Assembly: GCA_001247695.2 (NCBI GenBank)
Contig: LGRX02035265.1
Location: 49,596-113,595 of the forward strand
Origin: Cymbomonas tetramitiformis
Taxonomy: Eukaryota; Chlorophyta; Pyramimonadophyceae; Pyramimonadales; Pyramimonadaceae
DNA length: 64,000 bases
Direction of reading: 5' to 3'
Of the stretch, positions 16,801 through 45,370 are shown piece by piece. Numbering within the stretch: the first letter of the stretch is position 1; every line of letters starts with the position of its first letter. A program made the translations under genes and the position numbers. The notes under the pieces are model-generated. The model worked only from the letters and a program-made list of their open reading frames with translations. It was not told the DNA's origin and made no database searches.

Positions 16801-19267
16801 CGAAGTCTACATACAGGCCATGCAGTTCCCGTCCCGAGACATTTGCATCCTCTATCGCATTGGTCACTCTGGTGAGTTGTCGGAGTTTGTTCCTTTTTTC
16901 TCTTGAGCCTTCCTGCGCCTGGGCTAGTATTCCTTGCGTTTCGCAGAACGTAGAGAGCATGTTTGCTATTTGCGAGGTGTATAGCTTGAATACCCCCTCG
17001 AGTAGGGCTATGGGTCGGTAGTTTTGCTGTAGGGTGACGTCCCCTTTCTTGTGGTGGAAGCAGAATGTCCCCTTTTTCCAGGTGAGGGGGACGTGTTTGC
17101 TGTTCCACATTTCCAGCATGAGCGCATGTAAGGCGTCGTGGAAGTCCTCTGGCATGTACTTGAGAATTTCGTTCGGGGTCCTGGTGGGGCCTGGTGCTTT
17201 GTTGTTGTTTAAGGTGTGTACCGCCTTGCTGTAGCCCTGTCTACTTATTGTGAGGTCCAGTCCCGTGGGGTCTGGTCTTGGTGCCTTTATGAGGCGCTCT
17301 TTATGAGCTGGGTCTTCCCATGGTGGGGGTTTCGGGTCGGGCAAACTACGGTGCTCCATCTTGTATGGTGCTGAGTGAGCCATGTGGTCCACTAGTGCGT
17401 TTGCAATGTTCTCGTGGCCTACAGCCAGGTTGCCCTCCCTGTCCTGTAGGGCCTGTATGTTCGCCGTGGGGGCATGGCCTGTTTCTTGCGCCTTGGCATA
17501 TATCCTTTTGTGGTATCTTTTTTGGTTGTTCCAGTATTCTTTTACCGTTTTGTCATTGTGCCTTTGCTTGGCTCGTTTCCAGTGCTGTTTGACCACTTTG
17601 TGTGCTGCCGACCTTTCTTTTTTGGCCTCTTCAGTAAGCCATGACACCCATTCCTTTGCATCTGCATTGTCCCTGTCCGTTGGGCCCTTCATTTCTCCTT
17701 CCTTCAGGTTTTGGAGGGTTGAGTGTTCCGTGTGTGGGTTTCGTAGGTGTCGTTTGGTTTTCTTGTGCATCCGCATCTTGAGTATTGCAGCGTCCCTTTC
17801 TTTTCTGTCTTTTTTGCTCATTAGCAGGTCTGTTGCCCCACGGTTGGAGGCTCTCCCAACTATCGCAGTTGGTAGTTCCTCGTTCTTCAGCGCGCAATTG
17901 TTCGCTCTGGTGAGTATACTCAGCACGGCCTCTCCTGCTCTGTCTATGGTGGCATGCGCTACCTGCCTGTTGCCCTCTTCCCTGCATTGGGTGGCTATCT
18001 CTGTTATGCGTTTCAGCTCAGCAGTCCTGGCATAGTCGTGTGTCCTGAGGAGGACGCTTTGGAGGGTTTCCCTGTGGGTTTTGTTCAGGGGCGTGTCCAG
18101 CTTCACGTGCCCTGGTTGGGGGTCGCGGTCCACGTACGGTTCATGGGTGTCTATGCTATTTAGCCGAAGGGTTGCTAGGCTCACCATCTCATGGTCACTC
18201 GTGTGGTGTTGAGTGAGGTGTGTGGTGCTCCCCGTCTCGTATTGGGCCCGTTTGTTCCTCGGTGCTAGCCATCTGTCAATGTTTCTATTTTCTGCCCAGT
18301 TCAGTGTGGTATTGACCGTTGGGCCTACATTGTGGAGGTCCAACTCCTCCGCGAGCTTCTTCCATTGTTTGTCGGTTTTCGTTACCCCCTTGCCCGTGCT
18401 GGTGTTGCTCGCATTGAGGTCTCCTCCGACAATGACATGCTCGTTCGGTTTTTCCGCTGTTCTCCGGAACAGGTTGGTTGTATACTTGAGTATTTTGTCT
18501 CTGGTTCTCCCCTCTTCTGCCCCTGGTGGGTTGTAAATGCCCAGCACGTGGTACATTACTTCCCCGGGCAGGTGCAACACCACATGTAGGAGGTATCCCT
18601 CAAGGTGCCTCGCAGGGACAACATGGTGGTTGTGCGCGTGGCTGTAGGGGCTGCTGAGGAGTATGGCTACTCCCCCTTTCACTGCCTGTTCTGCAGTGCC
18701 CTCCGCCTCTTTCACCTCGGTTTTGGTGCCTATCGCGGTGTACTGCATATCTCTGAACTTCCTCATCACACTGTCGTGTGCATGCTTTACTTCCGTGAGC
18801 ACGACCACTTGCAGACCCAGTTGGTTTTGGTTTCTTTTTCTGACGACCTCGGCTAGGTCGAGGCAAGCGTCACTTTGTCCTGCTATATTCCATGTGAGCA
18901 TGTGTAGGCGGTCTTCCCCTACGTCCGTCTTTTTTGGTTCTGTGAGGGGGGGCTGGTGTTCTCGGGGGTCTTGGCTTGCCTCCAGTGCTTCCTGTTGTGT
19001 GTCTTCGAATTTCTCCCATTGTGTGGTGGGTTCGTCATTTACTTCCTCCTCCCCCTCTCTTGAGTGGGTTTCCAGCGTTCGCTGTTCTCCGAGCGTTTGC
19101 TCATCGTCACTTGGCAGCATCGTGGGGGTTAATCTATGAAGCCACCTCCATAGTCCCGGTTGCTTTGTGGCTTCCCTGCATCCCCCTTCTTGGGTTCGTG
19201 GCGCATGTGCCTCGACCTCTGGGTTTGTGTTTGGGCCATCGGTGGGCTTTCCAGGTCCCTGTCGCAT
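10811..19267 (-). CDS. LINE ORF2: endonuclease, RT, RNase H
   Basis: 2818 aa, uninterrupted. Residues about 121-375 are an APE-type endonuclease: TWNIAG, LTEVKH, GGDLNAS and SDHEMV carry the metal and catalytic residues. The reverse transcriptase spans about 680-1010: LYVDFENAYGSVDH, RGLLQGDSMSPLLF and the catalytic AFVDDLLI (about residue 936). RNase H lies at about 2085-2230 with YTDGSK, NRAELLAI, CTDSANS and a HTGIAGNEKAD end, so all acidic residues and the late His are present. Near the C terminus (about 2560-2620) a Cys/His cluster CTLEGCGHKG...GHALGGCNN resembles the zinc-finger-like end found in many LINEs. The start overlaps ORF1 by 134 bp in another frame; the first ATG is used by default. 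The 1000-residue linker between RT and RNase H is unassigned. Confidence 0.93.
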   Translation of the reverse strand: MRQGPGKPTDGPNTNPEVEAHAPRTQEGGCREATKQPGLWRWLHRLTPTMLPSDDEQTLGEQRTLETHSREGEEEVNDEPTTQWEKFEDTQQEALEASQDPREHQPPLTEPKKTDVGEDRLHMLTWNIAGQSDACLDLAEVVRKRNQNQLGLQVVVLTEVKHAHDSVMRKFRDMQYTAIGTKTEVKEAEGTAEQAVKGGVAILLSSPYSHAHNHHVVPARHLEGYLLHVVLHLPGEVMYHVLGIYNPPGAEEGRTRDKILKYTTNLFRRTAEKPNEHVIVGGDLNASNTSTGKGVTKTDKQWKKLAEELDLHNVGPTVNTTLNWAENRNIDRWLAPRNKRAQYETGSTTHLTQHHTSDHEMVSLATLRLNSIDTHEPYVDRDPQPGHVKLDTPLNKTHRETLQSVLLRTHDYARTAELKRITEIATQCREEGNRQVAHATIDRAGEAVLSILTRANNCALKNEELPTAIVGRASNRGATDLLMSKKDRKERDAAILKMRMHKKTKRHLRNPHTEHSTLQNLKEGEMKGPTDRDNADAKEWVSWLTEEAKKERSAAHKVVKQHWKRAKQRHNDKTVKEYWNNQKRYHKRIYAKAQETGHAPTANIQALQDREGNLAVGHENIANALVDHMAHSAPYKMEHRSLPDPKPPPWEDPAHKERLIKAPRPDPTGLDLTISRQGYSKAVHTLNNNKAPGPTRTPNEILKYMPEDFHDALHALMLEMWNSKHVPLTWKKGTFCFHHKKGDVTLQQNYRPIALLEGVFKLYTSQIANMLSTFCETQGILAQAQEGSREKRNKLRQLTRVTNAIEDANVSGRELHGLYVDFENAYGSVDHNKLLHTMQYLGIPDELTQVVRDVLGTQSHDTMSMNTRVGGETSHKTVQVQRGLLQGDSMSPLLFIIYQEPLLRWLEVGEHGYQHKYAAEQERLGPLRTTAGAFVDDLLILCPTIFHMRAQLHKLQAFSQWSELKINLTKSAITGIKNGVSIPEQLHKDLKMVGVDGKLSHFKILKPDDTYKYLGVLLAFTGRWDKEKEAAREEMNHRIQALLRSPLTPDQKEYSLHSAILGKFRYGLHLGLYTAGEIDDFNKIIGGATKNIQGLPRNGTPNMFTTQEKERFGLGMVPLQAVYAQSIWSGLLEAMHSEEDRGAVRGPAWRQINLKSRLRMSHVSRSTRGLVEYHCTTRVNCTDLDKLWGGHQTKHNTLRKLNALLRYNITPQGTEGMLRQLQTPVPKIMEQLKGATRRKSDKEMEGTTRKTKAGKIIDGDLPAPPDWQAMCTNQTAKLTVPKDTPTAINFTTCLKLFTHFPDLAFLTTRDGQHAISQVNVREQCTDATLNTDRSAIAKGLAHLYPYLCEAQPRDIAKPGDFYDSLTNRRLKQQYRSMPSEGPLDPHTMRTNLPRLNPEQLRVKMTEWEARLVPRGEIHRQLSLHPLTRINETETTSQTWGEEKEVPQDLHARPQTKWIDEIDPMAEKMETDCFEKGQTIDKPKEIVAMRTLLIDPTDPHSQVTQYRTQWRHSEGDDSYSWSTRETITDYLKLAKRRGQSATTFPTLKRRLRARGSQVTHPKGLREILAGRPHLGQAWPTLHAGNLTLDPTETNPEQDIADNREHHCQLRLEGELAHSYHRNGKYIGTLTKEKLLRLHERYTQAVGTTHHQTPHQRTLRIEMWEDHKIQVSTFEEEIGHLLIRYSSKEEKEERKKNLQNHWTFPAQMQRALQQAFGITTELFASPLNVHHNTTTYYAKYDRDKVFGARGSAWTTNWMKLGAYQFNPEYTPQDLKKALDFAIAATTTQDPVFGVGVYPTYEKTPYRKLYNAHAGHLVHELFEIPQGKFTFLPPDHWMGATHQQAKQCNWNLRVLIVANKAGWQAHCGDPDAAADCIRKALTTCPQSKVRTTTAVRQPMREANLHDTNEPNQEGRTLSVDCVVDTRPWQRYELPEIKTKDMTNAMGRMCNTGPHLRNDLCPQCYNVQAEVETWWEDSHLHVEEGPAKWELLPGSRGGKWDIHPPTVQQVVEANTLHTRLTRQTDAQTVWDKVARSKIVRYPTDFWPEHEPGVQGRRWELTRDRTEDPRNLAPSDTPAQLTYPPPQRAHEATSYLYTDGSKREIETEEGGKEWASGAAVWDPRSGEGEAHMIRWEGEDQEVNRAELLAIQKAVTLPPPPSGKGLTICTDSANSIRQLENMRTKPHSMEHHRQRDLLYAILVNIEALVAAGHTVSLLKVKAHTGIAGNEKADEAAKQACTTGTLTEAWDNDETIKVKPMVPDGDSDSRELKGKLAVQKYVTTLLRERQAQGNSRLSAKMTELQGEPTTWTHQLKTEHIFRWEAHYDQAQQTEEEQATIRDPMPNQQQQADQTRDEEDRQIKAMMEQREDEEMLIMQETQEQQEYWETEGRTDLTRGSDPKPAETPPQPSEGEEIFEELNELAERLEVTQEEHNDEEIFGMLNELIEQREAPQAEPANERQVHHDRVTEESRVHAMIEDPMPRTRWKQRKHDMTHNRTKNRNAPSVQEGKATENWLNETMGHLKGDKPLHKIANGFWKRATFAARKTILKCRLRILPAQDYETAKNSAGGSGKCTLEGCGHKGVDYAKGFLMRVGHALGGCNNPQMRGMFSDRADAHADELKHILDHHRKGGCKVLAYTGKKRDPGVKPRVLPNYILTRGQCRHDGKDNPGRNDGPDTIPSFVDIVMIEGLEDLEDGWECTQQEAPARVKNLHLIEVAHTDDEKWGPKLLEKYMKYGPLLQLLRRHGFRAKLHVFAVGRTGTVYKHNRDILEQLGLNRKEAMQALQRIHDLTVNYAHSTYQLYRRLRQEKQEDEIDEKDENHPV

Positions 19268-27400: not shown

Positions 27401-28806
27401 TTTACATTCTCGAGTAAGGGCGGAATGCTTAACTATATATATAACATATAACCTGATACCATGCTTAATTGCATATCTTTGGATCAGAAGATGATAGTTA
27501 TATAATGTATATATATATCCCACCTGATACACTTTGGCACTATAGCCATACATAAGAGTGGGAAGGACAGGTGCATCGCTGTAGGACTGGTTGATATAGT
27601 CCCAGTACTGAAGGCAGAATGTGGCACCCGAATAACAGCTGATAACTGTTGGGTGACCACCATGCAAAACCTTCCAGGCGTAACTCCTTCGTCCTAGGAT
27701 GCAAGTGAATTGTTCATAATATGTTGACATCGCATAAAAGCATTCTCAGGAAACCCCTATATATTCATGCGAGTTGTCATCACTACAAATGACATGGGTT
27801 TCAAATCGTCGAAATGAGTATAACTCCGATGAATTCATTAGTACAAAACAGCTGCTGAGATTATTCCTCCGGCTGGATTGCAATCATTCACAATCCCTGT
27901 ACATTCCGGTGACAAAATTTTGCACTGGACTGATCACCACATTTGGTATAATCTGTGATATATAAATCATCAGAAAAAGCGTTGCAATCAGTGCAATGCT
28001 GTCTAAACTCACAAAGATGAGTAATAGATTTCCTCAGATGTAATAAATTGAGGCACAATGTGACCTACGCTAAAATCGCGTATGCTCGGGCACTGTATTG
28101 TGACCTGCGCTAAGATCGCGTATGCATGGACATAATATGACTCGTGCCGATGACGTGGACACATTTCATACAACCCCCGGTACGAGCGGACAAGGTTGAC
28201 TGCCACGACATCACATCTGAAATCAATAAATCACTCAGAGAGAAGGTGTTGACATTAGTACAACACCCTTATACATATAGTCATGAGGAGTTTAAAGAAG
28301 ACACAGTCCCTCCGATATTGATAACATGGTGCTGAAATCTGTATAGGCAGCCCTGACCGGGAGTCCCGGTGCAGGCCCCTATGACAGATTCCTAGGTAGC
28401 CAACACTGGACCGTGACTGATCCGTAAGCCTGTGCTGTGACACACCGAGTGTCACAGGTAGCTAGACTCGAGACCGTTCCGACTCCGTGACCGTTCCGGG
28501 TATATCTAGCTTAGGGTTTATTTCTTATAGGAGTTTATCTAGATTGGTTCACTGACTGTCTGATATCTTGAACCGAGATATTCCAGTAGGTCGTGGACCC
28601 ATTCCACGCTATATTCCACAGCTAATTTGGCCATGATTGGCTAAAACAGCCGCTTTGATGACATCATCTGGCATTCGCCACATTCAAAAGCGTCATGCAT
28701 GTTGCCGGTATGACGTAGAGAGAATCGGTGTTCATATTGATATTGTTACCTCGAAAGCACTTGATTCGATGAGTAATATCAGTCTGATTTTCTATCAAAC
28801 CATTTT
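24494..28806. other. AT-rich intergenic region, no recognised gene
   Basis: No frame above about 130 codons and none with a recognisable domain. 24600-25250 is rich in CGCG and GCATACG-like motifs, similar in texture to 45900-46330. 25300-25700 is low-complexity ACACATATGC-rich. A short dispersed repeat lies at 26998-27041. 28340-28470 is GC-richer with the inverted pair CTGTGACAC / GTGTCACAG. I see no RNA gene. Confidence 0.5.
26998..27041. repeat. Short dispersed repeat, copy 1
   Basis: Two units of GGGCAACAACCCAAGAACTGTA. Related doublets or triplets stand at 40529-40584 and 41228-41261 (GGGCTGCATCCCAAGAACTG). Each unit is a weak hairpin (GGG...CCC). Confidence 0.7.
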
Positions 28807-28837
28807 AACACGCTATTCGATGAAATTGACATTAGGG
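28807..28837 (+). repeat. Left terminal inverted repeat
   Basis: Starts AACACGCTATTCGATGAAA; pairs with 39297-39324. A second GACATTA follows about 16 bp further in. Confidence 0.85.
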
Positions 28838-28989
28838 TAGATAATTGACATTAGCTGTTTTTGGCGATATTTAGAAAATATATGTGCTGAAAATGTTAAT
28901 GTTGAAAATAATTTTGCTCGCAGGCCTCCGCAACGGTAAAATTACAAGACACGTACGAAAATGTTTCCGAGACACGGTGAAGCATGCAA

Positions 28990-28995
28990 TTTATT
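28990..28995 (-). terminator. Poly(A) signal of transposase-like gene
   Basis: AATAAA on the minus strand, about 128 bp beyond the stop codon and still inside the transposon. It is the only perfect hexamer I see in this 3' region. Confidence 0.45.
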
Positions 28996-29122
28996 TTCTG
29001 TGCTGTAAATGGTAGCGAGCATGACATACAAAAGAAATGAGCAATTGCCATATCAGATTTCTCTAATAATCGTATTTACATTATGTACATCTATTTCTTG
29101 CGTCTTAGTCAACTGATTCTAT

Positions 29123-32100
29123 TCACATTTCAACATCGCTACCGTCGTCTAGGTCTTTACACCTCTGGTCAGCTCTGGACCGGTCGGGACAGGTCGGCAC
29201 TTCCTCATTTCCCTCGTTTTCGCTATTGTCTTCATCGCCTTCGGTTTCTTCCATTTGCCCGTTATCAATTCGTCTTTTCTTGGCTCTTTGCGCAAGCAGT
29301 GCCACTATAAGTTGCCCATACTGTTCTTCTGGGATACAACCTTTTGCTTCGTTAGCTGCGATGTTCCACGCTAGCAATATCTCTGCACTTTTGAAGGGCT
29401 CAGTTGACGGCGTATCGGATGCGTTCTCCCAGAAGGCTCCCGCTTTCCCTGCCAACACCTTTCCGAGTCTTCGCTCCTTAGTGTCCGTGTATGTCTTCAC
29501 TTTCAGGTACTTGTACTTCAACTCCTTCGTGTAGACAATCCGTGCATGCACTCGGACAAGCATCAGGGGGTCCGACCATTCTTTGCCGTTGAGCTTGACA
29601 CGGAATTGGCATACATCGTTGGCCTTCACACCCGTGATTTCTCCGAAGCAAACGGCGTAGCTGTTTACGGTCATCTGATCGAACGAAACCTCCCATACCG
29701 GGTTGGCCACGTACGCTTCAGCTTTTCTAGCAGCCCGATTCACCGCCTTACGTTTGCCCGTGTACACGGCAATCGGTGCACGTTCTACGCGTTCTTGAAT
29801 TCGGGCTGGAATTTCGGCTGCTGCTGGCATCTGCGCTTCGGCGAGTCTGAGAGGAGCTTCCAGGGCATGCACCAAAGGGGCATTCAAACGTGCGTGCAAT
29901 TTGCTCGGCAAAACGAACGGGACATTGGGCTCCTCGAAAATGCCCTCCTCGGTCAGCTTTCGTTGCTTCCTCAACAGCTCCGCCCACCACGCCTCGTGGG
30001 TAGGTGTAAACGTCGTACTCAAAATGGTCCGCATCCCGTCCACCAGATCCTCGAGCTTCGTAAGCCCTTCTTTGGAGAAGGCTTTCGGTTTGACAAAATC
30101 AGGCAGGTTCTCGGGCATACAGTTCAACACCTTGAGGCCCTCCTCTGGTAGCCACTTCTTGTCGGTGGAATACATCTTGTATTGCACGACCACTTCGCCG
30201 GCCTCGTTCTTGAACGCTTTGAAGGTCTGCTGCGTGGAGATGCCACAGACGTTCTCGTAGCGACCACCGAACCAGGTCTTCAAATCGTGCACTTTCGCCA
30301 CCGCGGTCGTGAAGATGCCATCCGAGAAACACTCCTTTGCGATTTCCATCATTTCGTCAAGGGTCATCGCAAGCTTGCGTTTTAAGCGCACAGAAAAACG
30401 CGAGAACATCTGGTCGATGTTCTCGTGGGTGTGGCCGACGATTAGGAAGTTCACCTTCACCTTCTTGAACGCGCCAGACATAACCAACCAAGAGATATAC
30501 GCCAAAAGCATAATGCTCTTGTTGGTGCCCACGTTGTCAAGCTGGACGTATAACACTTCCGGCATCGGGTACGGTTCCTCGCCATCCCCTTTACGACGGT
30601 GCTCTTGAATTCGAGTGACGTCACGATGCAGCACGTTCAGCAGGAAGTTGGCGTCGTCACCGTAATTCGCGTAGTTGAAGTCCATAAACCGGCCAACGTT
30701 TTCGATGATGCTACCCATATTGTGCACGTCCAAGAAGTCCTTTCGGTCCAGATATGATGGCATGCGCCTGAAATGCGGCAGGCGCGTCGTCCATTGGGTC
30801 ATCCCGTCAATGATGACAGAGGAATATTTCCACCACGTCTTGTTTTCCTTGATGCTCTTAGTCATGTTAGATTTTCGGCCGTGTTTGTAGAACTTCTCAC
30901 GCTCGGCACGCGCTTGGTTAAGGTGCACCTCTCGCATTTTGTCGTATTGACCTGAAAAAAAAAAAACGTTTTAATATACAAACTTCTAAAACAACGTAAA
31001 ACAAATGCAAATACTGTATTTTTCAGAATTTAGCTTACCGTGCTGGGATTTAGGTGTGCCCTCCTTCAAGAGTTTGATCGAAGCACATACACTGCACTGC
31101 GAAAAACGCTTGCACTTCGGAACTTTGAGCCAAGATTTGAACTCGTCTTTCCAGATTTCGTAGAAGTACGGCAAGGAGACTTCCTTGGATTTGCGGTCGT
31201 GAATAGATAAAGAATCGAGATAGTCATCCCAAATCTCTTCTCTTGTCTTCCCCGACGGGAGATGCGTCTCAGGTTTATGAGGCTGAGGTTCGCCCTGTTC
31301 TTCCGCATATTTATTCACGAAGGCGACGACATTTGATTTTTTGTTGGACAAACGCCGATTTGCCTCACTGCCAGTCAGCCCGTGAATGAAATTCGTTCTT
31401 CCAGAGAGAACGCGCTCGCGTACGTCGCAGAAATAGCCTTGGCTTACTTTGTAAACCTTCTGGTAGAAGGCCGAACACACCTGTAAATATACCAGCAAAG
31501 TGAATGTTTTCAAAAAGAAGGAAAACCGCTCATTAACCTAATGAGCAGTTTTGGCACACTTTCAGGAATACGAACAAAAAAATATTCTTCAAGGGGATTT
31601 GAAACAAAAGAAGGAAAACCGCTCATTAACCTAATGAGCAGTTTTGGCACACTTTCAGAAATACGAACAAAAACAATTCTTCAAGGGGGGGTTTTCAAAA
31701 AGAAGGAAAACCGCTCATTAACCTAATGAGCAGTTTTGGCACACTTTCAGGAATACGAACAAAAAAATATTCTTCAAGGGGGATTTGAAACAAAAGATGG
31801 AAAACCGCTCATTAACCTAATGAGCAGTTTTGGCACACTTTCAGGAATACGGACAAAAAAATATTCTTCAAGGGGAATTTATAAAAAAGAAGGAAAACCG
31901 CTCATTAACCTAATGAGCAGTTTTGGCACACTTTCAGGAATACGAACAAAAAAACTTCTTAAAGGGGATTTGAAACAAAAGAAGGAAAACCGCTCATTAA
32001 CCTAATGAGCAGTTTTGGCACACTTTCAGGAATACGAACAAAAAGATATTCTTCAAGGGGATTTTATAAAAAAGAAGGAAAACCGCTCATTAACCTAATG

Positions 32101-32961
32101 AGCAGTTTTGGCACACTTTCAGGAATAGAACAAAAAATATTCTTCAAGGGGATTTTATAAAAAAGAAGGAAAACCGCTCATTAACCTAATGAGCAGTTTT
32201 GGCAAACTTACCGGTCTGTCACATATGAAGAACATAAATATGAATCTTGAGTCACAAGTTCTGGTCCCGCTCTTCATAAGATCTCTTATCATCCATTCTT
32301 TACGATCTTTTTGAGACAAGTTCCAAAACATTTCGCGTTGAGCAGCTAAAGCTGATGTGTGAAACATTAACGAGCAAAACGATTTGCACTTGCACCGATA
32401 AGTTGCAATACTTTCCATGTCTGATTGTGAAAGGTTTCGTTCTTTGATTGATATTTGACTCTTAACTTTGGGTTTTCTTTTTACTGATGTGTAAACTGCT
32501 CGCTCTTTTCCGACCTTAGTTGTTTTCCCATTCAGCACACTTTCACTCTTTTCGTCACCCACGGAATGTGAACTAAAGCTTGCTTCAAGGCTTTGCGTTA
32601 TCTCATTGAAGTCAACACTTGTTATCTTTCGCGAACTAGACTCTTGCGTGTTTATTGTGTCATTAGAGTCCGATGAGCGCTGAGTCGCGCGAGAGTCGCT
32701 AGTCTTTTGCAAGTTTGCAGTCATTGGAGTTTCTGCGCTTTTCGAGTGCATTGGCGTTTCAACGCACGGAAAGCATAATATCTCATCGTCGCAAACTGTT
32801 TTGTATAGCGATGAGCGAGGAGCGTTAACTGGCGATGAGCGAAATACGTCTGTTTCTATTTCTATGATATCGTCTTCCTTCTGGGTGTAGTATATTGCAG
32901 GCTGTGAAAGGTCAATAACTTCGTCGATAGCTTCGTCAGCTATTCGCCAGAACGGCCCCAT
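29123..32961 (-). CDS. Transposase-like protein (DGM-Q / LDN / GHTHENID family)
   Basis: Three exons on the minus strand: 32961-32212, 31480-31039 and 30951-29123 (1006 aa). Junctions are GT-AG (GTAAGT, GTAAGC; TTACAG, TTTCAG) and restore one frame exactly. Exon 1 (residues 1-250) is Ser-rich and ends with a Cys-rich CKCKSFCSLM segment followed by a conserved-looking helical stretch. Exon 2 starts VCSAFYQKVYKVSQG and holds a Cys cluster (CKRFSQCSVC, about 373-382). Exon 3 holds IIDGMTQWTTRLPH (Asp about 446), VQLDNVGTNK (Asp about 536) and VGHTHENIDQMFSR (about 570). This order of motifs is shared by a large eukaryotic protein family (DUF7869-type). The D, D and E/D residues fit an RNase H-like fold of the transposase/integrase kind; that assignment is inference. 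The tail is acidic. It is probably the enzyme that moves this element. Confidence 0.85.
31491..32211 (-). repeat. Eight 93-bp tandem repeats filling intron 1 of the transposase gene
   Basis: The palindrome CTCATTAACCTAATGAG recurs at 31529, 31622, 31714, 31808, 31901, 31993, 32086 and 32177, each followed by CAGTTTTGGCACACTTTCAG and an A-rich spacer. The last unit runs directly into the exon 1 donor: its CACACTTTCAGG is changed to AAACTTACCGG, which on the minus strand reads as the GTAAGT donor. Unit spacing is 91-94 bp. Confidence 0.95.
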
Positions 32962-33393
32962 CAGAAAAATAGTTCAAAAATCTTATGAAGCCAATTTCCG
33001 TGAAATGAAAACGACGACAGTTCATTCCGAGTTTCGTCAGGGGCGACAGCCGATGACTTTGAATTTGAATATTACGGTCGGTCATATTAAATTCATCGGA
33101 TCGATCGACCAAACTTTGTCCAATAACATCACTCTGTACTCAAGTTCCCGGATCGAGTGCAGATGTCATCAATCGAAATCGAGAACTTGAATGCAGATTC
33201 GAGTTCTTTGTCGCGTTCGGCCCGTCCAATAAAATACTTCGATTTGCAATTCTCAGATTTTGATGACGAGAGAACAAAACTTATTGAAACTCAATAAACT
33301 CGACCAGACTTCCTCACAATTCAAAACCTACTTTGCATAACACCGCTTACAGCTCATCGCCCTTTTTGTTTTACTTTTTCGTGAATTAAAATA
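32962..33393. promoter_or_regulatory. Divergent promoter region of the transposon
   Basis: 432 bp between the two start codons, so both transcription units must start here. It has CGATCGA and ATCGAAATCGAGAA-like motifs (33100-33250) and repeats of TCATCGGATCGATCGACC type, but no perfect TATA box on either strand. Which elements act is unknown. Confidence 0.5.
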
Positions 33394-35363
33394 ATGGCAA
33401 CTTTGGATCAATTTCGCGCATTAATGAGCGCAGGAAGCATAACACAGATACCCAACAAGCAGTGGTCAGTTGAGCGCGTACCTTCTTTAGACGGCCATGT
33501 GCTGCGAGTAAAAGTTTTTCTCGCAACAGCCGATGGGGAAACAGTTCACAAAAGTTTGCCTATTTTGCCAGCAAACGCAGATGAGAACCTTCGTATCTCT
33601 TTCGCTGGCGCTGCGTCAACCGCCAACGGCAATACCCCGCTGTACGTGCTGGCGGCGTCTGAACGCCCTCATGAGTATAGCGCTGTCCGTCTTGACGCTG
33701 AAAATATGCTGATTAGCAGCGTGGCGCCTACTTACACAGTGCGCAAGAACAGGCTGGATGAGCTGGTTACACGCTCAGCGTCCAAAGTTCCTGCTGCTGC
33801 TTACAGTTCTTTTCTGAATGAAATGTGGCGAAATTCCGAGAACCCAGACTTCTGGAAGTCTGCTGAGATATCTGGTGAAGAGTACAGTCTCTTGGACGAA
33901 TCAATCGATACGGAGATGGGTGGCACCGGAGTACTTCCAACCGCGGTAAGTTCAAAGATTTTTAAAAATCCTGTGATATTTTGTTTAATTATTTGTCATT
34001 TCTATAATTATTAGTGTGTCTTAAAAAACTTGAACAAAAAGCCTCATTAGCCTAATGAGCAGTTTTGCAACCTTTCTGGCCTTTAGGTTTTTTTACAGTT
34101 TGTATGATAACTACTGTCATTATATGACATGTGTGACTGTTTTACCCGAGAAATTCGATGACTGACCCAAACTTGAACAAAAAGCCTCATTAGCCTAATG
34201 AGCAGTTTTGCAAACTTTCTGGCCTTTACGATTTTTTTTACAGTTAGTATGATACCTACTGTCATCATATGACATGTGTGACTGTTTTACCCGAGAAATT
34301 CGATGACTGACCCAAACTTGAACAAAAAGCCTCATTAGCCTAATGAGCAGTTTTGCAAACTTTCTGGCCTTTACGATTTTTTTTACAGTTAGTATGATAC
34401 CTACTGTCATCATATGACATGTGTGACTGTTTTACCCGAGAAATTCGATGACTGACCCAAACTTGAACAAAAAGCCTCATTAGCCTAATGAGCAGTTTTG
34501 CAACCTTTCTGGCCTTTACGATTTTTTTTACAGTTAGTATGATACCTACTGTCATCATATGACATGTGTGACTGTTTTACCCGAGAAATTCGATGACTGA
34601 CCCAAACTTGAACAAAAAGCCTCATTAGCCTAATGAGCAGTTTTGCAAACTTTCTGGCCTTTACGATTTTTTTTACAGTTAGTATGATACCTACTGTCAT
34701 CATATGACATGTGTGACTGTTTTACCCGAGAAATTCGATGACTGACCCAAACTTGAACAAAAAGCCTCATTAGCCTAATGAGCAGTTTTGCAAACTTTCT
34801 GGCCTTTACGATTTTTTTTACAGTTAGTATGATACCTACTGTCATCATATGACATGTGTGACTGTTTTACCCGAGAAATTCGATGACTGACCCAAACTTG
34901 AACAAAAAGCCTCATTAGCCTAATGAGCAGTTTTGCAAACTTTCTGGCCTTTACGATTTTTTTTACAGTTAGTATGATACCTACTGTCATCATATGACAT
35001 GTGTGACTGTTTTACCCGAGAAATTCGATGACTGACCAAAAGGTCTCATTAGCTTAATGAGCAGTTTTTCTTTTTTTTCCTTTACTGCAGGATTCTGGCA
35101 CAACCGACTTTAATTCACCAGTAAAGCTTCCCAATGGCTGGACCGCATGCTTCACACAATCTGCTGTTCGGAAGGCAAACAAAGATCGTTTCGGGAAGTC
35201 CTCGGTGTCAGCACACCAGTGTCTCTGTATAAATTGTGGTAAACAAGGAGAAAAGCGGTGTGGCGGCTGTCACCAAGCAGTATACTGTTCCCATGATTGT
35301 GCGAAGCAGCACTGGAAGTCGAGCCATCGACAGGAATGTAGTAAATCAAAACTAAAGAAGTAG
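33394..35363 (+). CDS. MYND-finger protein (short isoform)
   Basis: Two exons, 33394-33945 and 35091-35363 (274 aa). The donor is a perfect GTAAGT, the acceptor is TTTACTGCAG, and the junction is phase 0. Residues 1-184 have no domain I recognise. The C-terminal exon encodes a textbook MYND zinc finger: CINCGKQGEKRCGGC, then YCSHDCAKQHW and HRQEC, with all eight zinc ligands. MYND fingers usually bind proline-rich partner peptides in transcription and chromatin regulators. A possible poly(A) signal AAATAAAAT at about 35405 follows the stop. The exon is best read as an alternative terminal exon of the longer gene sharing exon 1; a separate gene is less likely because exon 1 would otherwise be orphaned or the downstream exons would lack a start. 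Confidence 0.8.
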
Positions 35364-38300
35364 GCATACAATTACATTGACAACCGTAATTGATCAAGAC
35401 CGATGTTAAATAAAATATGTACCATTAGCTTGTAATGTAAAATATGTCTCATTAGCTTAATGAGCAGTTGTGCAAAGTTTCTAACCTTTGTGATTTCCCC
35501 TTAACAGTTTTATAATGAATATGAGTGTTGTTTCGAATTGCTCATTAACCTAATGAGGTGTTATCTGTTAGTGACTAACTTTGTACTTTTATATTACAAT
35601 ATAGGTACCGTTGACACCTGCAGCAGAAAGCGATCTGGCTGCTAGTCGTGGTCCGGGCGGCTCATTGTTAGCTTACGGGCCTGGAGAGACAGCGAAGGCG
35701 GCCAAAGAACAGAATGCCGAGCAAGCAGCGCAGAACTGGCAGTCCTTGCTCTCTTTGCCGAAACAGCGGCGTTCAGTAGCTCATTCTAATACGATTCGGT
35801 ATCAGATTGAGTATAACCACCGGTACCCCAGAGTCGTTGACGCCAAAGACGTCAAGGGGTGTACCTTCAACATACCTATCCAGTACATTATACAGGCTGA
35901 GGACTACGAGCGCATCAGGGATGAGGACCGTGCGCAAGTCATGAACTTGAAAGAGAGCATGGCTTGGAACCCACACGGTTTTCAGAACACGTCCCTAGTG
36001 TACGTTATATGGGCGGACTCTGGGGAGCACCTCACAACCGCGGAGGACTTTGACCCCAGTAAGGTGTGGGAAGGCGTATATCGTTTCGTGTGCTTCGGGC
36101 ACCAACATAGCCTCACCGCTCGGCGGGAGCTTCACCAAGAACAACCAGATAACGAAGCTTTTCAGCAGATCGAGTGCAAATTGTATTTTAATCTACAGTC
36201 TGACATGGTCCGATTTTTGGCTGACGAGCAGAACACCGTCGACCAGAACGTGAAGGGCAAGTCGCACCAGCAAATCATAAAATCCATGCGAACGGGCATG
36301 CAGGTGATTTCTGAGAAAACAATGTAACTTATCCATCTTTGTCACTTAAAGCTCTTACTTACTTAAAGTAAAAGAATGTTACTAACCGTAATTTCTCGGC
36401 AAACCATGCAGGCATCGAAGGGCCCTCTCCACAAACTCTATTGGCATTGTGGCATCACGGAATGGGACGTTCAGGCCCAAGACTGGACGGAGGACGGCCT
36501 GGTGAAGCAGTTGGAAAAGCACGATCCCAAGACTTTCAAGCTTCCTGCAAAGAAGAATAGGAAGCATGTCTACGAGAAGCTGTCGAAGGGGGACTGGGCC
36601 AATGTGAACGATTGGGAGCTTTTCGGGGGAGGCGTTGACAATGGCAAATGGTTCCCGGTCTGGTACTTTTTGACATCGGCTCAGCAGTTGCAGATTAAGG
36701 CGGAGGTGTTGCAAATGAATCACATCTCCTACGCCAACGAATACGCAACGAATTGGTCGATGGCTACAGTGCGTCAGGAGACTTGGGACCAGATTGTTAG
36801 AATCATGCATGCGTACGAATTGCGTATTCTGAAGGGGCAGACTAAGACCCCCACCAAGGGGTCGGGTAAGAAACGCAAGACCTGGACTCCGGAGAGTGAG
36901 ATCGTTGACATGACTACCGAGACGTCTGGGGCGGAGGAGGCGTTGAAGGATGTAGGTGCCGACCTCAAGAAGAAGAAGTCGGGTGGCAAGGCCAGGTCTA
37001 GGCGTGTTCCTCGAAGCGCCGGTAACACGTTGAGTGTCGGTCAGCCGGCACAGCCTTTGCAGCAGGCGATCGTGAAGGAGAGCGAGAAGAAGGAGTTGAA
37101 CATGTCCTTTTTCCAGACGATGCTCGGGTTTCACTCGGACGTGGAGGTTGATTACTTGAACGGCGTTCTGAAGAAAATCCTGACCACTGAGATCACCATC
37201 GCAGAGGCGATTGACACCCTGAAGAGGTTCAAGGCCCAACGCAACGTTCAGGCCTGGATCGTGTCGCAATCTGGGGTGGAGAATTGGACTGCTTTTGAGA
37301 GGAAATACGGTGAGACTTGGGCTTGCCAGGAGTCCATCGAGCGATGCATCAAGGCGGTGAAACAAGGTAAAAGTGGGCGAGGGGGGAGTCAGCTCACGGT
37401 TCCCAAGGCCATCGTCCAATTCGTCGCAGACTGCAACACGTGGCTTTCCCGGTGTCAGGCCGGAGAGGGAGACCTCGGGCGGCTGCCCGTCAACTACGTC
37501 CCCAATACAGTTAAGGTGTGCGTTCTTTCAACATTCTTTGTTGTAATAGTCGTGCTCCTCAACATGTAGTTGCATGTTTTATTGCGCTAGCAATTTTGGG
37601 TCATTCAAATATTAACAAGCGGTTTGTGGTATAATAATAGGTGGCACTTCCCTCCCCCCTTGTGGAGGATGGTAAGGAGGCAGAGTTTGAGAAAGAGTTC
37701 GAGTGGAAGACGGTTCAAACCGGCTACATGATCTACAAAGACGAGTTGACGAAACTCGAGAATGTCCCGAAGATGAATTACGTGGGGACAATACTGGACG
37801 TTATTTACGACTTCGATACGGAGCTGTCAGAGCACGCGTTATCCGAGCCCGACCTGATCAAGTTCATAGATGCCTTTGCGGCGCTCACCACCTCGCCGGA
37901 CTGGACAATATTGATATTTTGTGGGTTTGCTCAGCAGACTGGGTTCCTGAAGATCCTGGAGAGCAAATGCAACGGTGGGGCCCAGCGCATATGGTGGCGC
38001 AAGGAGAACCAGGATGTAGGTGCCAACAAAGCCATCCGGTACAATGTCCTCGAAGCGGCTGTCATCGGGTTCCAAATGGCGGACCAGGAGTCCGGGGAAA
38101 AATCCACTCGCAAAGCATGGATGTGCGACTTCGACTTCTCGACGAAGGATGCGGAGGCGGGCTCGAGGGCGAATGTGTTGGAGGGGTATTCTGTCGTCAA
38201 GCAACCCTTCCGAGACGAGGGGAAAGTGGTATGCGCTCACCAGAAGCCCCAGCACCTGCTAATCGAGCTCATCAACTGCCACATGATGGGACCCGCACCT

Positions 38301-38789
38301 TTCGCCCAGTTAAACAACGATTCGTCACCCAACTGGATCTTGGATGCGGGGTGTGGGGTCGCGACGGCCACAATGGCAGCTCTCCGGTGCGGCTTGAACG
38401 CTGTCGCGTTCGACTCCGACCAAGACATGGTGAATGCAGCCAGTCAGCGGATTGGGAACATTAACGACGAGCCTAACGGCGATACGGAATGCATGTCACT
38501 CGAGGAAACGGCGAAGCTCAAAGAGGAAGCACGCATAGAGGAGGAAAACCTCAAAAGGGCGAAAGAAATCGCCGACTGCGCTAAGGACATGGAGGAGTCG
38601 GCTGATGAGGACGGTGAAGAACCCGCTGAAGATCCACCCGCTGAAACCGGCACGGCTTCTGGGCAACCCGAGGCAGGAGAAGGAGAGGAAGGAGAAGATG
38701 GAGATGAAGAGGAAGAAGAAGAGGCAGGAGAAGGCGAACCAGGAGACAACGATCCCCCCGCACCTACCGACGACGCACCAGCCGAGTAA
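33394..38789 (+). CDS. ParB-like / DNA methyltransferase-like protein (long isoform)
   Basis: Inferred exons 33394-33945, 35605-36303, 36412-37515, 37641-38789 (1167 aa), all introns phase 0 with GT-AG ends; a good branch site ACTAAC stands at 36381. Exon 1 is shared with the MYND isoform. Residues about 271-396 resemble a ParB/sulfiredoxin-like domain: a NLKESM helix, a YRFVCFGHQHSLTARREL box and FLADEQNTVDQN. A basic linker (about 560-610: KKRK, KKKKSGGKARSRR) may be a nuclear signal. Exon 4 (786-1167) looks like a beta-class DNA N4/N6 methyltransferase: DVIY at about 838 in place of DPPY, WWRKENQDVGANKAIRYN, AHQKPQHLLIELI (about 984-996) and the SAM-binding ILDAGCGVATATMAAL (about 1018-1033). 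The tail is strongly acidic. The altered motif IV makes activity doubtful. ParB joined to such enzymes is otherwise a bacterial and phage arrangement. Confidence 0.72.
33946..35090 (+). repeat. 145-bp tandem repeats filling intron 1 of the plus-strand gene
   Basis: Seven full units plus a partial one. The palindrome CTCATTAGCCTAATGAG stands at 34043, 34186, 34331, 34476, 34621, 34766 and 34911 (spacing 143-145), and as CTCATTAGCTTAATGAG at 35045, just before the acceptor. The flank GCAGTTTTGCAA-CTTTCTGG is shared with the repeats in the opposite gene, while the rest of the unit differs. Each unit also has an open minus-strand frame, which is only a shadow. Confidence 0.95.
35448..35560 (+). 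repeat. Two more palindrome copies in the intron before exon D
   Basis: CTCATTAGCTTAATGAGCAG at about 35449, followed by TTGTGCAAAGTTTCTAACC, is a clear single copy of the repeat. CTCATTAACCTAATGAG stands again at about 35542. They lie between the MYND stop and the acceptor at 35604. Confidence 0.85.
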
Positions 38790-38833
38790 ATAGTGCACGC
38801 CGTGCCAAATGCCTGTCTTGAACCTGGAATGAA

Positions 38834-39173
38834 CGCAGATACCGCGTAGATTGTGGTCGCAGTGCTAACAGCTAGCCCTGAACATTAATAAAACACATGT
38901 ACAAAATGAAATTAGTCACCGCATCATATTTTGTATCGTGTTTACCACATTGAATGCTTGCATGTGCTTGTGAATGTATTATGAACACTCATACGTACGT
39001 ATCCGAGCAGATACCGCGTAGACTGTGGTCGCAGTGCTAACAGCTAGTCCCGAACATTAATAAAACACATGTACAAAATGAAATTAGTCACCGCATCATA
39101 TTTTGTATCGTGTTTACCACATTGAATGCTTGCATGTGCTTGTGAATTTATTATAAGCACTCATACGTACGTA
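38834..39173 (+). repeat. Duplicated 3' UTR of the long gene
   Basis: A 165-bp segment with a poly(A) signal (TTAATAAAACACATG, first copy at about 38886, second at about 39058) is present twice in direct tandem (38834-39002 and 39009-39173) with only a few changes. Both copies lie before the right terminal repeat. Confidence 0.9.
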
Positions 39174-39296
39174 TCTATTAGCCTCACCGGCACCCGCGTT
39201 TATACGTGCGTCTCGCGTCTCGTCGGAAAATACGTTATTTTCGTACGCCTTGGAATTATTTAGCTATCTATAATTAAATTGAAAAATGACATTCCA

Positions 39297-39324
39297 TAAT
39301 GTCGTTTTCATCGAATAGCGTGTT
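39297..39324 (-). repeat. Right terminal inverted repeat
   Basis: Reverse complement of the left end. The adjacent inner sequence GACATTCCATAATGTC is an inverted pair of the GACATT subterminal motif. Confidence 0.85.
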
Positions 39325-41433
39325 TTTTTCACATAACATACTAATTGAATGGCATTCTCCATTACCATCTGATTGGTTTGATACACCTCTTTTTAAAGGG
39401 GGAGGAAGGAGTATAGATTCATTCATTCTTCATACAGCTGCCACAAATTGATTTACATCATTTTGATTTTACATCATTGTGATTTTGCTTGGAAGATTAA
39501 AAATCTTATGAAAAGTTCCAGCATCTGTGTATAGCAGTCATAAAGTTTGATGACACGGTACACCATGCCGATTGAAGCATCAAATGAAGTCTTTATTTGA
39601 CTTACTGACACATGAAGTTCATTATGAAGAAATCATAGATGCATATTTCTCCGGCTCTATCATATTATATGAAGGGCACTGACATAGGAGAACGATGGGT
39701 TTTTAAATGTGAATAAGCTATATTGTAAGCTTACGACCATTACTTTGACGTCAACAGCCTGCGATGCTGATTGTTGAATTTCAAGAGTTGAAGGATTCGT
39801 TGAATCAGCCATGGTAACATGTGGTTTGATTGATGAATTGTTGATCCATGGTTTTCCCCCAAATCTAGAGAAGCTGGCGCACAAGTTATTGCCAATGTCT
39901 GAAGGAAAGCATCTGAGCCAAGGATTGCCATTTGTGCCATTCAGGCATCGAATTCCATAACAGCAAAGCCGAGTGAGTGAGATCCGCCGCTCTAGCTATT
40001 TGCCCGTCATTCCTTCCAGGTTCATGACAAGAGACAATTCATCAAAGTCATACACCAATGCATAAATCACATGTATGGTTGCACAGTTTGTATCCGAATG
40101 CAATCCCATAGAGGTTAAGCATCTAGACAACAACTCTGGCCAGCAAAAAGCCTTCCTCTCTTCGGATATCTTGAGCATTCTCATTTCCAGCTCCATTGTA
40201 ATCAAGGAAGCATCATGCCTGTGCCTCGCCGGAACGCTGATCCTCAAAGCCGCACGCTTGAATCGAGCCTTACGAGACAATGACCTTTGGCCGGTGGGGC
40301 GTCAACCCCTTATCAACTCCTGAACACTTGTTAACACCTGGATAAAATTAACATGATGCAACTTAAGTGGGATTATAAGTTCCACATAATCATATTGTCT
40401 ACGTATGCTGAAGGCATAACTGCCGCATATGGTCACGATAGGTCGTAGCTTCTATAACATTGTGGCTTCTGAGTCAAAAGCTGATAGCCGATGACTTTGG
40501 CCAATGATTGCCGACCGAATAATAATCAGGGCTGCATCCCAAAAACTGCAGGGCTGCATCCCAAGAACTGCAGGGCTACATCCCTAACATTTTTACACTG
40601 CATCAAATTGATATGGCAGGAGCAGGAAATTGATCCTTCCTTGCTAAGGTGTAGTGAGCCTTGTACCAAATCATACCCTTGCACAGATACGCATACATGC
40701 GGGTACCATATCTGTGGATAAATAAAAACTGCTATGCTACTTTTGCCAGACCGTGGTTTGTCATTCGGATCTTATGGCCAGTAATCTGCAGCTACCGGAT
40801 ACTGAGGTGGACGGAGTTGTGATCCTGAGTTATGATTGACATACATAACTAAACGAATTTCACATTAGTACGTTGTCGAATCCAATCTATGAAATGTTCG
40901 TCAGTGCGCGCGTACCGGACCGAAAAAAAAGGAGTCTGGCAGATCGGGTGAGGATTTAAAGTGGACTCATAGAGACCCTCCGATATCTCGTTAAGCAGGG
41001 CCCACTCCGTTTGCATTAAACCAAGCCTGAAAGGGACCCTCCATAGTATTCCTGTGAACCTCGGGGGAGTAAGCTCTCTGAGGGGAGGAAGAGGTGGATG
41101 CATTATATAAAGCCGTAAAAACGTCACTCTGAAATACGATACGAACGGCAGCGCAATATCTACCCGTAACGTAAACCTCGGAAGATACCTTGAAACGTCA
41201 CTCTGAAATACGATACGCAATTCATGGGGGCTACATCCTAAGAACTGTAGGGCTATATGCCTAAGGTGAGGGTTTAAAGTGGACTCGGTCCCCCCCGATA
41301 TCCTAAAACACCTTGAGGGACGCCTCATCGGTGTAAGAAGACTGGTACCAGCTCAACAACAAAGACATCAAAGACATATACAAAGGTATGCACCCTATAT
41401 TGTGAGGTCACAACTCTTCTAAGAGGGGAGATC
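39325..41433. other. Flank of the transposon with decayed repeats
   Basis: 39660-40300 has short frames on the minus strand with Trp/Pro-rich, protein-like stretches (for example PEWHKWQSLAQM in one frame) broken by stops and frameshifts, probably a decayed coding element. 40529-40584 and 41228-41261 are the short dispersed repeat. 40950-41300 repeats GGTTTAAAGTGGACTC and ACGTCACTCTGAAATACGATACG twice. No intact gene. Confidence 0.45.
40622..40830 (+). repeat. Inverted partner of 44075-44272
   Basis: From GGAAATTGATCCTTCCTTGC to GCTACCGGATACTGAGGT, this matches the reverse complement of 44075-44272 with small indels. It includes TGGATAAATAAAAACTGC, which may be the poly(A) signal of an LTR. 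It is probably an LTR/leader fragment of the same retroelement in opposite orientation. Confidence 0.75.
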
Positions 41434-42978: not shown

Positions 42979-44100
42979 CTATTGTTCTTTCATCCCAAGA
43001 CGGTCCTCCAAAACGCAAGAGGTCTTCGTCTCCTGGGTCTGCACCTCAGCGTTGGCAGCTTGCATCCCCGTGCCTGAGCACCTGGGACATAGCCACTCGC
43101 CCTCTGGCACCTCTGATAATGCTGGGGTAACGCACCATAAATGATACCCCTTGTTGCACGTGTCGCACAACAACATCTCCGCTTCCCCGTCAGCTTGCCT
43201 GCACACTTCACATGCAAGATGTTTGCTGGGCACAGCTGCGCTGCAGTCATACTGATCTTTGACCTGCAGATGGCACGGCGCGATACTCTGCACGGTGCTC
43301 TTCTCCTTGAGTTTGGCGGCGTCCTCGAGCACCACCACACCATCCCGCTGTATCTTCACCAACTTGAGGATGGCTGGCTTGGTGGCCACTTCCATACCAC
43401 TGCGAGGCTTCAGTCTGATGTACACGAAGTCTCCCACCTTGAACTGATGTGGCTTGGGTTCATAGCCACCACCCCTTCTGCCTTCATAATGTAGGGTATC
43501 TCGATGCTGCGCAACCTCAAGACTGCAGCCTGCATGTACCATCAGTCGCCTCACCACCTGCGCTCTCTGCAACAGGTCCTTGACTCGGTGGTCCTTGTCG
43601 TCACTCACCTCCAGATCGAAGTCCAGGTTGGGTGCCTGCTTCAGATCAGGCGGCACCGCCGCCTCCTGAGCAAACAGTAGCGTGAACGGTGCCACTCCTG
43701 TGGACTCCTGCCGAGCTGCGTTGTAGCTCAGCACCAGTGGCCAGAGCTGTTCGTCCCACTCATTGTCGAGACCCTTCTCCAGGGCGAGCTTCTTGAATCA
43801 GAACTTGATAGTGCGTACCACCCGCTCTGTGAGCCCATTGCCCTCTGGTGAGTCTGACGATGTGACTCTCCTGTCTATCAGACAGTCCCTGCACAGTTGC
43901 TCAAATTCACCCTCAAATTCCTTGCCTCCGTCGACCAGGCACTCGGCTGGCGCCTCGAAGACAGCCAGCACATCGTTGCGGAACGCTGCCGCGATGGTGC
44001 TTGCCTCTTTATTAGGAATAGGCACGCACACTACGAATCTGGTGTGATGCTCGGTCATGATGCGCACCCTACTGTTACCTCAGTCGATGTCTCCGGTAGC
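42979..44100 (-). pseudogene. Integrase fused to PHD finger
   Basis: One frame with TGA stops at 44082-44080 and 43800-43798. The core shows HHTRFVVCVPIPNKEA, LVDGGKEFEGEF (second catalytic Asp) and SPEGNGLTERVVRTIK (catalytic Glu in the usual N-E position). After the second stop: LSYNAARQESTGVAPF, typical of Gypsy-type integrases, then an SH3-like end (FKVGDFVYIRLKP). The C-terminal 45 residues are a complete PHD finger, CEVCRQADGEAEMLLC, CNKGYHLWC, CPRC (Cys4-His-Cys3). PHD fingers read histone H3 tails, so this is a likely targeting module in the position where chromoviruses carry a chromodomain. The first catalytic Asp region is lost with the truncated 5' part. Confidence 0.78.
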
Positions 44101-44377: not shown

Positions 44378-45370
44378 TTAGCCTTCATAGGCAGCTATCA
44401 TGTCTGCTGCATTGGTCAGCTCTGTGGCTTTGGCCCAGGTGTCATGCTCAGGGCCGTAGCCTGCATATCGCACTAAATAGTACTTGACACCTCTAGTGAT
44501 CTTATCTGAGAGTATGTGTGATATCTCAAACAGTGATTGCCCTTCTTCGGTGATCATCTGTGGCAGAGGCAAAGGTGCTTGGATCGAGTCGTTGTACAGC
44601 TCTATTCTGGATACAGGCTGTACCGGATGGATACGGATATCGAGATTTCCGAAATCTAACTCGTATGCACGCCCATGGCTAAGCACTTTGGATATAGTGA
44701 ACGGCCCAATATATGGCTGCTTAAAGTGTCTGCCTGCCTCTGTCAAACCAGTCCATTGGATAAACTCGGTCCGTAAAAGAACTTTCTGCCCCGCTGCATA
44801 TTGCCGAGGCATGTGAGTCTTATTGAATCTGGCTTGGCTAATTTCTGCTGCTCGGGAAATGTTGTCTACCGCGTTGGCATGTACAGCCGAGTACTGGTCA
44901 AAATGATCTTCAATAGCTCTCTGTATTGGAACAGGAGCTTCTGGCGGAATAGTGATTGCCAGATCATGAGGCGAAAGTGGCTGCGCCATCGAGTCGAGAT
45001 AGAATGGTGAATAACCAGTAGATGCAGAAACTGTGTTGTTAATTGCAAACTCCACTAGAGGCAACTTGTCCTCCCACGAATTGGCTGAAGTATCATTGCA
45101 ACAACACCTGTGGATGAAAAAATACTATCTAATCAGTTCATAAACCATAGGATGGTGAATATCGAATCATGAATCAACAAATTGAAAAGTACCTGAGGAT
45201 ATCCTCGATGAAGGCATGGCTCCTCTCATTGGCTGCATTCGACTGTGGATGGTGCGAAAACGTCATAGACAATCTCGTACCAGTAGATTTCCACAGTGTT
45301 TGCCAGAATGTAGAGGTGAATCTGGGGTCTCGATCTGAGATGGTGTTCCTCGGATGGTATCGTGATCAAG
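44378..45370 (-). pseudogene. Chromovirus integrase end with chromodomain, spliced
   Basis: Minus strand. The first exon (about 45370-45193) encodes HPRNTISDRDPRFTS, FWQTLWKSTGTRL and HHPQSNAANERSHAF: the second catalytic Asp (DRD) and the Glu of a Gypsy integrase. An 85-bp intron (45192-45108) follows, then a 228-codon frame: SWEDKLPLVEFAINNTV, the GPF...SRIEL linker and a C-terminal chromodomain (YYLVRYAGYGPEHDTW). Chromodomains direct chromovirus insertion to modified histones. Everything upstream of the second catalytic Asp is missing, so it is a 5'-truncated fragment. Confidence 0.82.
45108..45192 (-). other. 85-bp spliceosomal intron in integrase
   Basis: On the minus strand CTCAG|GTACTT opens it and TTCATCCACAG|GTG closes it. 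Removing it joins ILR to CCNDTSANSWEDKLPL in one frame; keeping it shifts the frame (85 is not a multiple of three). Integrases of this class normally read straight through here. Confidence 0.7.

Follow-up and report, generated by a model that had tools for sequence, protein, structure and literature searches.

A multi-copy DNA transposon of Cymbomonas tetramitiformis with a DUF7869 transposase-like gene, a ParB/methyltransferase-like cargo gene and intronic palindrome arrays

Bacteria possess ParB-parS systems as well as proteins in which ParB is fused to a methyltransferase (MTase), and Sola1 transposons make 4-bp target duplications. The Ectocarpus element Sola1-1 (21.5 kb) encodes a ParB-like and N4/N6-MTase protein of 1104 amino acids (aa) opposite its transposase, and similar proteins are said, in the available excerpt of the same report, to be known from transposons of green and red algae (PMC12477816); the excerpt of another source merely lists Sola (PMC4455052). 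Here we describe a 10.5-kb element at positions 28807-39324 of a window of 64,000 nucleotides (nt) of Cymbomonas tetramitiformis (contig LGRX02035265.1, assembly GCA_001247695.2, forward strand 49,596-113,595), where ‘the window' denotes this whole stretch. Genome-wide searches were run against the 852-Mb Cymbomonas draft; a long-read assembly of this alga is reported, in the excerpt available, to contain 68% interspersed repeats and abundant endogenous viral elements (PMC10675990). The nearest proteins bearing a name are CYMTET_* entries of C. tetramitiformis. The element is genuine, and the evidence that it is a recent transposon is strong; its type of cargo has precedent, and its palindrome system is the new part.

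The inverted ends of the element match at 26 of 28 positions, as the preliminary description of this DNA had claimed (Table 1); assuming uniform base frequencies, about 1e-4 such pairs would be expected in 64 kb, and the inverted arms reach 40 nt at 83% match. The subterminal GACATTA motifs that had also been singled out did not prove special, since this heptamer alone is not enriched (8 in the window versus 7.0 expected) and matters only as part of the element ends. Searching the genome with the end 16-mer gave 1460 forward and 1457 reverse matches with at most two mismatches, compared with 133 and 109 for a reversed control. From the first 100 places listed, 18 end pairs lying on the same contig and facing each other were picked by eye, a non-random sample in which 12 pairs (13 of 19 including the window) were flanked by a perfect 4-bp direct repeat. 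Joined flanks with one 4-bp copy retrieved empty sites for both insertions searched, with 40 scored matches for C293 (81-100%, including 17 that are fully identical over 180 bases) and 40 for C1728 (92-98%). We fetched ten complete copies, which measure 10.0-11.0 kb, share 93.5-99.7% identity with the window and form two subfamilies; of two short copies bearing the same ends and also fetched, the one of 1655 bp has a 4-bp duplication and the one of 1112 bp has none. Two of the checks proposed in the preliminary description, a search for other copies with these ends and a comparison of occupied with empty sites for a fixed target duplication, thus both gave positive results: second copies and empty sites exist, and among fetched copies the 10 full ones and five of a sibling family (see below) keep both genes between inverted ends. 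The left flank is identical in C1641 and C2142.

The transposase-like gene lies on the minus strand and its three exons encode 1006 aa, with a DUF7869 (PF25273) profile match of 149.3 bits against a cut-off of 26. Its predicted fold, from a model of the relative P0002, is of the integrase/RNase H type and places D446, D536 and E574/D577 where expected, in agreement with the RNase H fold that had been anticipated; the residue numbers given earlier (D446, D536, 570-577) were correct. Copy number, 4-bp duplications, empty sites and the predicted RNase H-like fold support the earlier view that proteins with DGM-Q, LDN and GHTHE-ID motifs are transposases, and agree with an element that looks autonomous. 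The two divergent intact transcription units reported there were likewise recovered, as the transposase-like gene on the minus strand and the cargo gene on the plus strand, both open; no other gene was recognised between the ends in the list of open reading frames (ORFs), of which the antisense ones were not domain-scanned. A PDB sequence search returned nothing convincing (MboIIA methyltransferase at E 0.5), an Rfam scan gave nothing at the gathering threshold, and no DUF7869 relative was confirmed in viral contigs. The annotated protein CYMTET_16163 (P0017) joins a PF04937 part, which we take to be hAT-like, to a DUF7869 part, probably representing a gene model drawn across a nested insertion.

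All 11 copies (the window included) retain both genes and the splice sites checked, 11 in number, except that one transposase donor reads GC, not GT. Reading frames were intact in 6 of the 11 for the transposase, 6 for the long cargo form and 10 for the short MYND form, and two further copies stop 15-20 codons short of the end of the long form. At the genome scale, the best 78 of 3704 first-look transposase candidates were scored (all 99-100% identical, 76 stop-free), as were the best 136 of 2317 cargo candidates (94-100% identical, 133 stop-free); these counts are lower bounds, as only the best candidates were scored. On contigs with a scored match of each gene, the two were divergent in 32 of 32 cases, at distances of 5.8-9.4 kb in 28 and 11-20 kb in 4; this linkage count uses best-scored matches only, and the 46 of 78 transposase matches with no scored cargo match on their contig are uninformative on absence. 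The copies look mosaic: C1515 resembles a subfamily-A element with subfamily-B-like cores in its transposase intron array, and a similar appearance was noted in C293, C1361 and C1728. Taken jointly with the rest of the favoured explanation, it is highly probable that the element is a cut-and-paste DNA transposon, present in many copies, recently active and autonomous-looking, and that, judging from the modelled fold, the DUF7869 protein acts as its DDE transposase.

The cargo is a single plus-strand gene with alternative termination, predicted to yield either a MYND short form (274 aa) or a long form of 1167 aa. The MYND domain and the ParB-like and methyltransferase-like regions recognised in the preliminary description were found, but not as separate genes: from the splice sites we infer that the first exon, c1, continues either into the MYND exon or into the ParB-MTase exons. 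The MYND finger (PF01753) scored 39.3 bits against a cut-off of 22.7. In the fold comparison of exon c3 the top 20 rows were all of the Srx/ParB/Noc/KorB type, but for a model with a predicted local distance difference test (pLDDT) score of 49; where ParB has its GERR-type motif, c3 carries GHQHS. The PF01555 profile did not match the window protein and gave 31.9 bits for the relative P0031 (cut-off 26.7) and 21.8, below the cut-off, for the relative P0032. The catalytic motif IV of N6/N4 methyltransferases is [D/N/S]PP[Y/F/W]; the corresponding residues are DVIY in the window (D53-x-x-Y56, 37797-37808), DCVY in P0031 and P0032, and DCNY in the four sibling copies printed. Methylation is doubtful because DVIY replaces DPPY, so that the ‘DNA-modification module' suggested earlier remains plausible while modification itself is left unproven by this motif. 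In phages, the MTase part found one match at E 3 and the ParB-like part none, and PHROGs and NCBIfam yielded just weak methyltransferase matches for the cargo.

The window holds 18 palindromes of the form CTCATTA-N3-TAATGAG (36 strand matches; 0.06 expected), which went unremarked in the preliminary description. All lie within the element and outside exons, eight in transposase intron 1, eight in the intron after c1 and two before c3; the 93- and 145-bp array units differ, yet share about 20 more bases beside the palindrome. The 11 copies contain 191 exact sites (15-22 per copy) and every CTCATTA in them is paired; no site with one, two or three mismatches in the arms was seen, whether the core was set to 3 bases or to 1, 2 or 4. 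The lack of near-misses is the informative result, because the sites were selected by exact arms. Variation affects 12-18 of the 20 columns on either side of the sites and two or three of the 3 columns of the core. In the genome as a whole the exact pattern was counted 5282 times and its reversed control 0 times; the element ends carry no palindrome, the arrays being internal and at least 2.7 kb from either end. We take the palindromes to be candidate sites, perhaps parS-like, at which a protein of the element would bind, with the ParB-like protein as the favoured candidate binder by analogy.

Starting from the relative P0002, a further family was found in this Cymbomonas genome (102 matches, with 58 of 6336 candidates scored). 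Five of its copies (8.4-9.1 kb) were fetched; their gene order is as in the window element, their ends, which begin AACACACTATTCGATG or AACACTCTATTCGATG, are related to those of that element, and all five are flanked by 4-bp duplications. Transposase exon 3 is 56-57% identical in four copies and 50% identical over a longer stretch in the fifth, and the cargo is 28-44% identical by segment. No MYND match was obtained at 1e-5 in the five copies, nor was c1 found in them, cargo matches beginning at residue 180 or later. Because this sibling family has the same design, the pairing of transposase and cargo is old and not one chance capture. CTCATTA-N3-TAATGAG is absent from the five copies, which carry TTCATTA-N2-TAATGAA instead; its 72 sites, of which 71 read TTCATTAGCTAATGAA, occupy the same transposase intron and the region immediately before the ParB-like exon. 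Imperfect sites also occur: two have a single arm mismatch, a third has two that are symmetric, and each copy holds a weak site standing alone, so that conservation of the sibling palindrome is high but not absolute.

A mechanism can be proposed in which the DUF7869 transposase would pair the ends, cut, and join with a 4-bp stagger, while the palindrome arrays beside both genes would be bound by the ParB/Srx-like protein or, with lower probability, by the transposase. The bound protein might then mark, package or regulate its own element, through methylation if the degenerate methyltransferase is active, or else as an S-adenosylmethionine-binding factor that coats DNA; the MYND short form, which has the first exon in common, would probably recruit host chromatin proteins or tune the action of the ParB/Srx-like protein. 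By analogy we tentatively suggest, with confidence somewhat short of even, that a eukaryotic transposon lineage may have built a ParB-parS-like system, in which a ParB/methyltransferase-like protein would load on intron palindromes and spread, copies would be recognised, marked or held together as self DNA, and protein and palindrome would have diverged in step when lineages separated (CTCATTA-N3-TAATGAG in one, TTCATTAGCTAATGAA in the other).

Selection was assessed as the ratio of non-synonymous to synonymous divergence (dN/dS) between subfamilies, comparing the window with C293, C1361 and C1728; inside the window's own subfamily, changes were too few for the ratio to be read. The transposase as a whole gave 0.14-0.17 (0.20-0.22, 0.03-0.04 and 0.15-0.27 for its exons apart), exon c3 0.30-0.39, the MYND exon 0.23-0.31 and the acidic tail 2-5. 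Because synonymous divergence itself spans more than a factor of ten within the element, from 0.016 (MTase part) to 0.27 (MYND exon), the subfamilies are probably mosaics and the ratios are weak evidence. Several observations weigh against the explanation given here. Exons c1 (0.91) and c4 (0.83-0.97) and the MTase part (1.39-1.77) give no sign of constraint; motif IV reads DxxY instead of DPPY in both the window and its relatives; the ParB-like model is poor, no ParB model was matched in a Pfam scan of the cargo exons, and Foldseek returned no match below 1e-3 for either model (transposase relative, ParB-like). Each empty site is a different member of a repeat family rather than the insertion locus itself in a second individual, and 6 of the 18 fetched end pairs lack a 4-bp duplication (3, 2, 0, 0, 0 and 0 bp); these pairs (C106, C513, C1482, C1641, C2343 and C1507) may be mixed-copy ends or rearrangements.

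The element may instead be a Sola1-type transposon with a known ParB-methyltransferase accessory, DUF7869 being the Sola transposase under another name, a reading based on published descriptions that we consider about as likely as not. The Ectocarpus protein and the 4-bp duplications seen here fit it, whereas the open-licence papers searched do not contain ‘DUF7869' and the excerpted Ectocarpus report offers no DUF7869 link, ‘DUF' occurring 0 times in its main text (PMC12477816). An endogenous virus in decay, Polinton-like or mirusvirus, is scarcely credible: such elements are abundant in the Cymbomonas genome according to the excerpt cited above (PMC10675990), but the scanned exons contain no capsid, polymerase or packaging domain, no such ORF was recognised between the ends, and 4-bp duplications and a DDE-like transposase are found instead.

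As to the palindromes, one array lies inside the transposase gene and the sibling family, with its diverged transposase, has a different palindrome, which would suit transposase-binding sites or transposition enhancers rather than sites of the ParB-like protein; with palindrome-free ends and the arrays far inside the element, we consider this doubtful. A role in RNA, as intron hairpins steering splicing or polyadenylation and including the choice between the MYND and ParB exons, is improbable. All sites are intronic by the gene models and the sibling site with two mismatches stays symmetric, but a hairpin needs pairing and not one exact sequence, and the 191 sites contain no arm change, compensatory or otherwise; folding one unit as a single strand (DNA parameters) gave nothing out of the ordinary (z -1.67). 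Since tandem repeats such as these arrays homogenise, identical arms might be devoid of function, a reading to which we give very little credence. Homogenisation alone is insufficient because it would not spare the arms alone: unit flanks and core vary with no arm variant, and the arms are exact in two solitary sites, in two different units and in both subfamilies, and nearly always so in the sibling family.

Table 1. Coordinates in the window of the features of the element
Feature	Position	Strand	Remarks
Left target-site duplication TTTT	28803-28806		Weak alone, T-rich; other copies have varied 4-bp duplications
Left terminal inverted repeat	28807-28834	+	Begins AACACGCTATTCGATG; about 1,460 genome matches per strand with at most two mismatches
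Transposase exon 3, DUF7869 (PF25273)	29123-30951	-	D446, D536, E574, D577; E 1.3e-43; fold of relative P0002
Transposase exon 2	31039-31480	-	Acceptor and donor retained in all 11 copies
Palindrome array 1	31529-32193		8 copies of CTCATTAACCTAATGAG, 93-bp tandem repeat; inside transposase intron 1 (31481-32211)
Transposase exon 1	32212-32961	-	Sibling family encodes part, 34-37% identical
Cargo exon c1, first exon common to both isoforms	33394-33945	+	No known domain; c1-c3 junction also in annotated CYMTET_54048
Palindrome array 2	34043-35061		8 sites, 7 CTCATTAGCCTAATGAG in 145-bp units and 1 with GCT core; intron before MYND exon
Alternative terminal exon, MYND zinc finger	35091-35363	+	PF01753; with c1 gives the 274-aa protein
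Two solitary palindromes	35448-35464 and 35541-35557		Upstream of ParB-like exon
Cargo exon c3, ParB/sulfiredoxin-like domain	35605-36303	+	About residues 85-195 of exon; fold comparison
Cargo exon c4, middle region	36412-37515	+	No known domain
Cargo exon c5, N6/N4-methyltransferase-like domain and acidic tail	37641-38789	+	HQKP; LDAGCG; relative P0031 matches PF01555
3' region, two direct repeats 172 bp apart (96% alike)	38835-39175	+	AATAAA in each; 3' side of cargo gene
Right terminal inverted repeat	39297-39324	-	Pairs with left end
Right target-site duplication TTTT	39325-39328	.	Direct repeat of left TTTT

Outside the element, the window contains on the minus strand a LINE-like ORF of 2818 aa (10811-19267) with endonuclease, reverse transcriptase and RNase H, in which a PCIF1 domain (PF12237, E 2.1e-16), presumably of a cap-methyltransferase family, lies between reverse transcriptase and RNase H. 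Also on the minus strand are a Copia-like polyprotein (50059-52413) with a match to the Dam DNA adenine methyltransferase profile between Pol_BBD and integrase (PF05869, E 9e-6; 25.9 bits, the cut-off of 28.1 not being reached), and two ORFs resembling retroelement tails (42979-43734 and 44378-45064) that carry a PHD finger and a chromodomain towards their ends. A chlorophyll a/b-binding family match (PF00504) at 5086-6027 on the plus strand was the only host-like gene recognised among the scanned ORFs. Elsewhere, the stretch G000:C53:25901-30500 (L126) carries three ends in the same orientation about 1.92 kb apart, with no right end in the stretch, and is perhaps a tandem array containing a transposon end; the element end was also met in 63 stretches of viral contigs, many of phage size, which we judged to be chance.

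DUF7869, a eukaryotic family annotated as of unknown function, is here linked to element ends, to duplicated target sites and to a fold predicted to be RNase H-like, and so gains a testable function as a transposase. The ParB-methyltransferase proteins of algal transposons gain a candidate target in thousands of exact palindromes on the element itself; if the protein binds them, this would be a eukaryotic transposon with its own ParB-parS-like self-recognition, and the protein's role might lie in marking, escape from silencing, copy control or co-segregation. Like the window element, Sola1-1_Ec32 of Ectocarpus is a long DNA transposon whose transposase is accompanied, on the other strand, by a ParB-like/N4/N6-methyltransferase protein of about 1,100 aa, although Sola1-1 is a 21.5-kb element of a brown alga for which the excerpted report mentions neither palindrome arrays nor a MYND form (PMC12477816). 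The earlier remark that no described element has this gene set accordingly stands only in part, ParB and methyltransferase opposite a transposase having a precedent; in the open-licence papers searched, judged mostly by title and abstract, neither the MYND short form nor palindrome arrays were found in print for such elements. Fungal TET/JBP dioxygenase transposons, as described in the available excerpt, similarly place a DNA-modification enzyme beside a transposase, but differ in transposase superfamilies, in enzyme and in duplication length (2, 3, 6, 7 or 8 bp; PMC12730594). From bacterial ParB-parS the present system differs as a nuclear eukaryotic transposon with a GHQHS motif, intronic palindromes and no ParA seen, while its predicted likeness to ParB-parS and ParB-MTase proteins lies in the combination of ParB/Srx-like and N6/N4-MTase-like domains with a short palindrome repeated near the gene.

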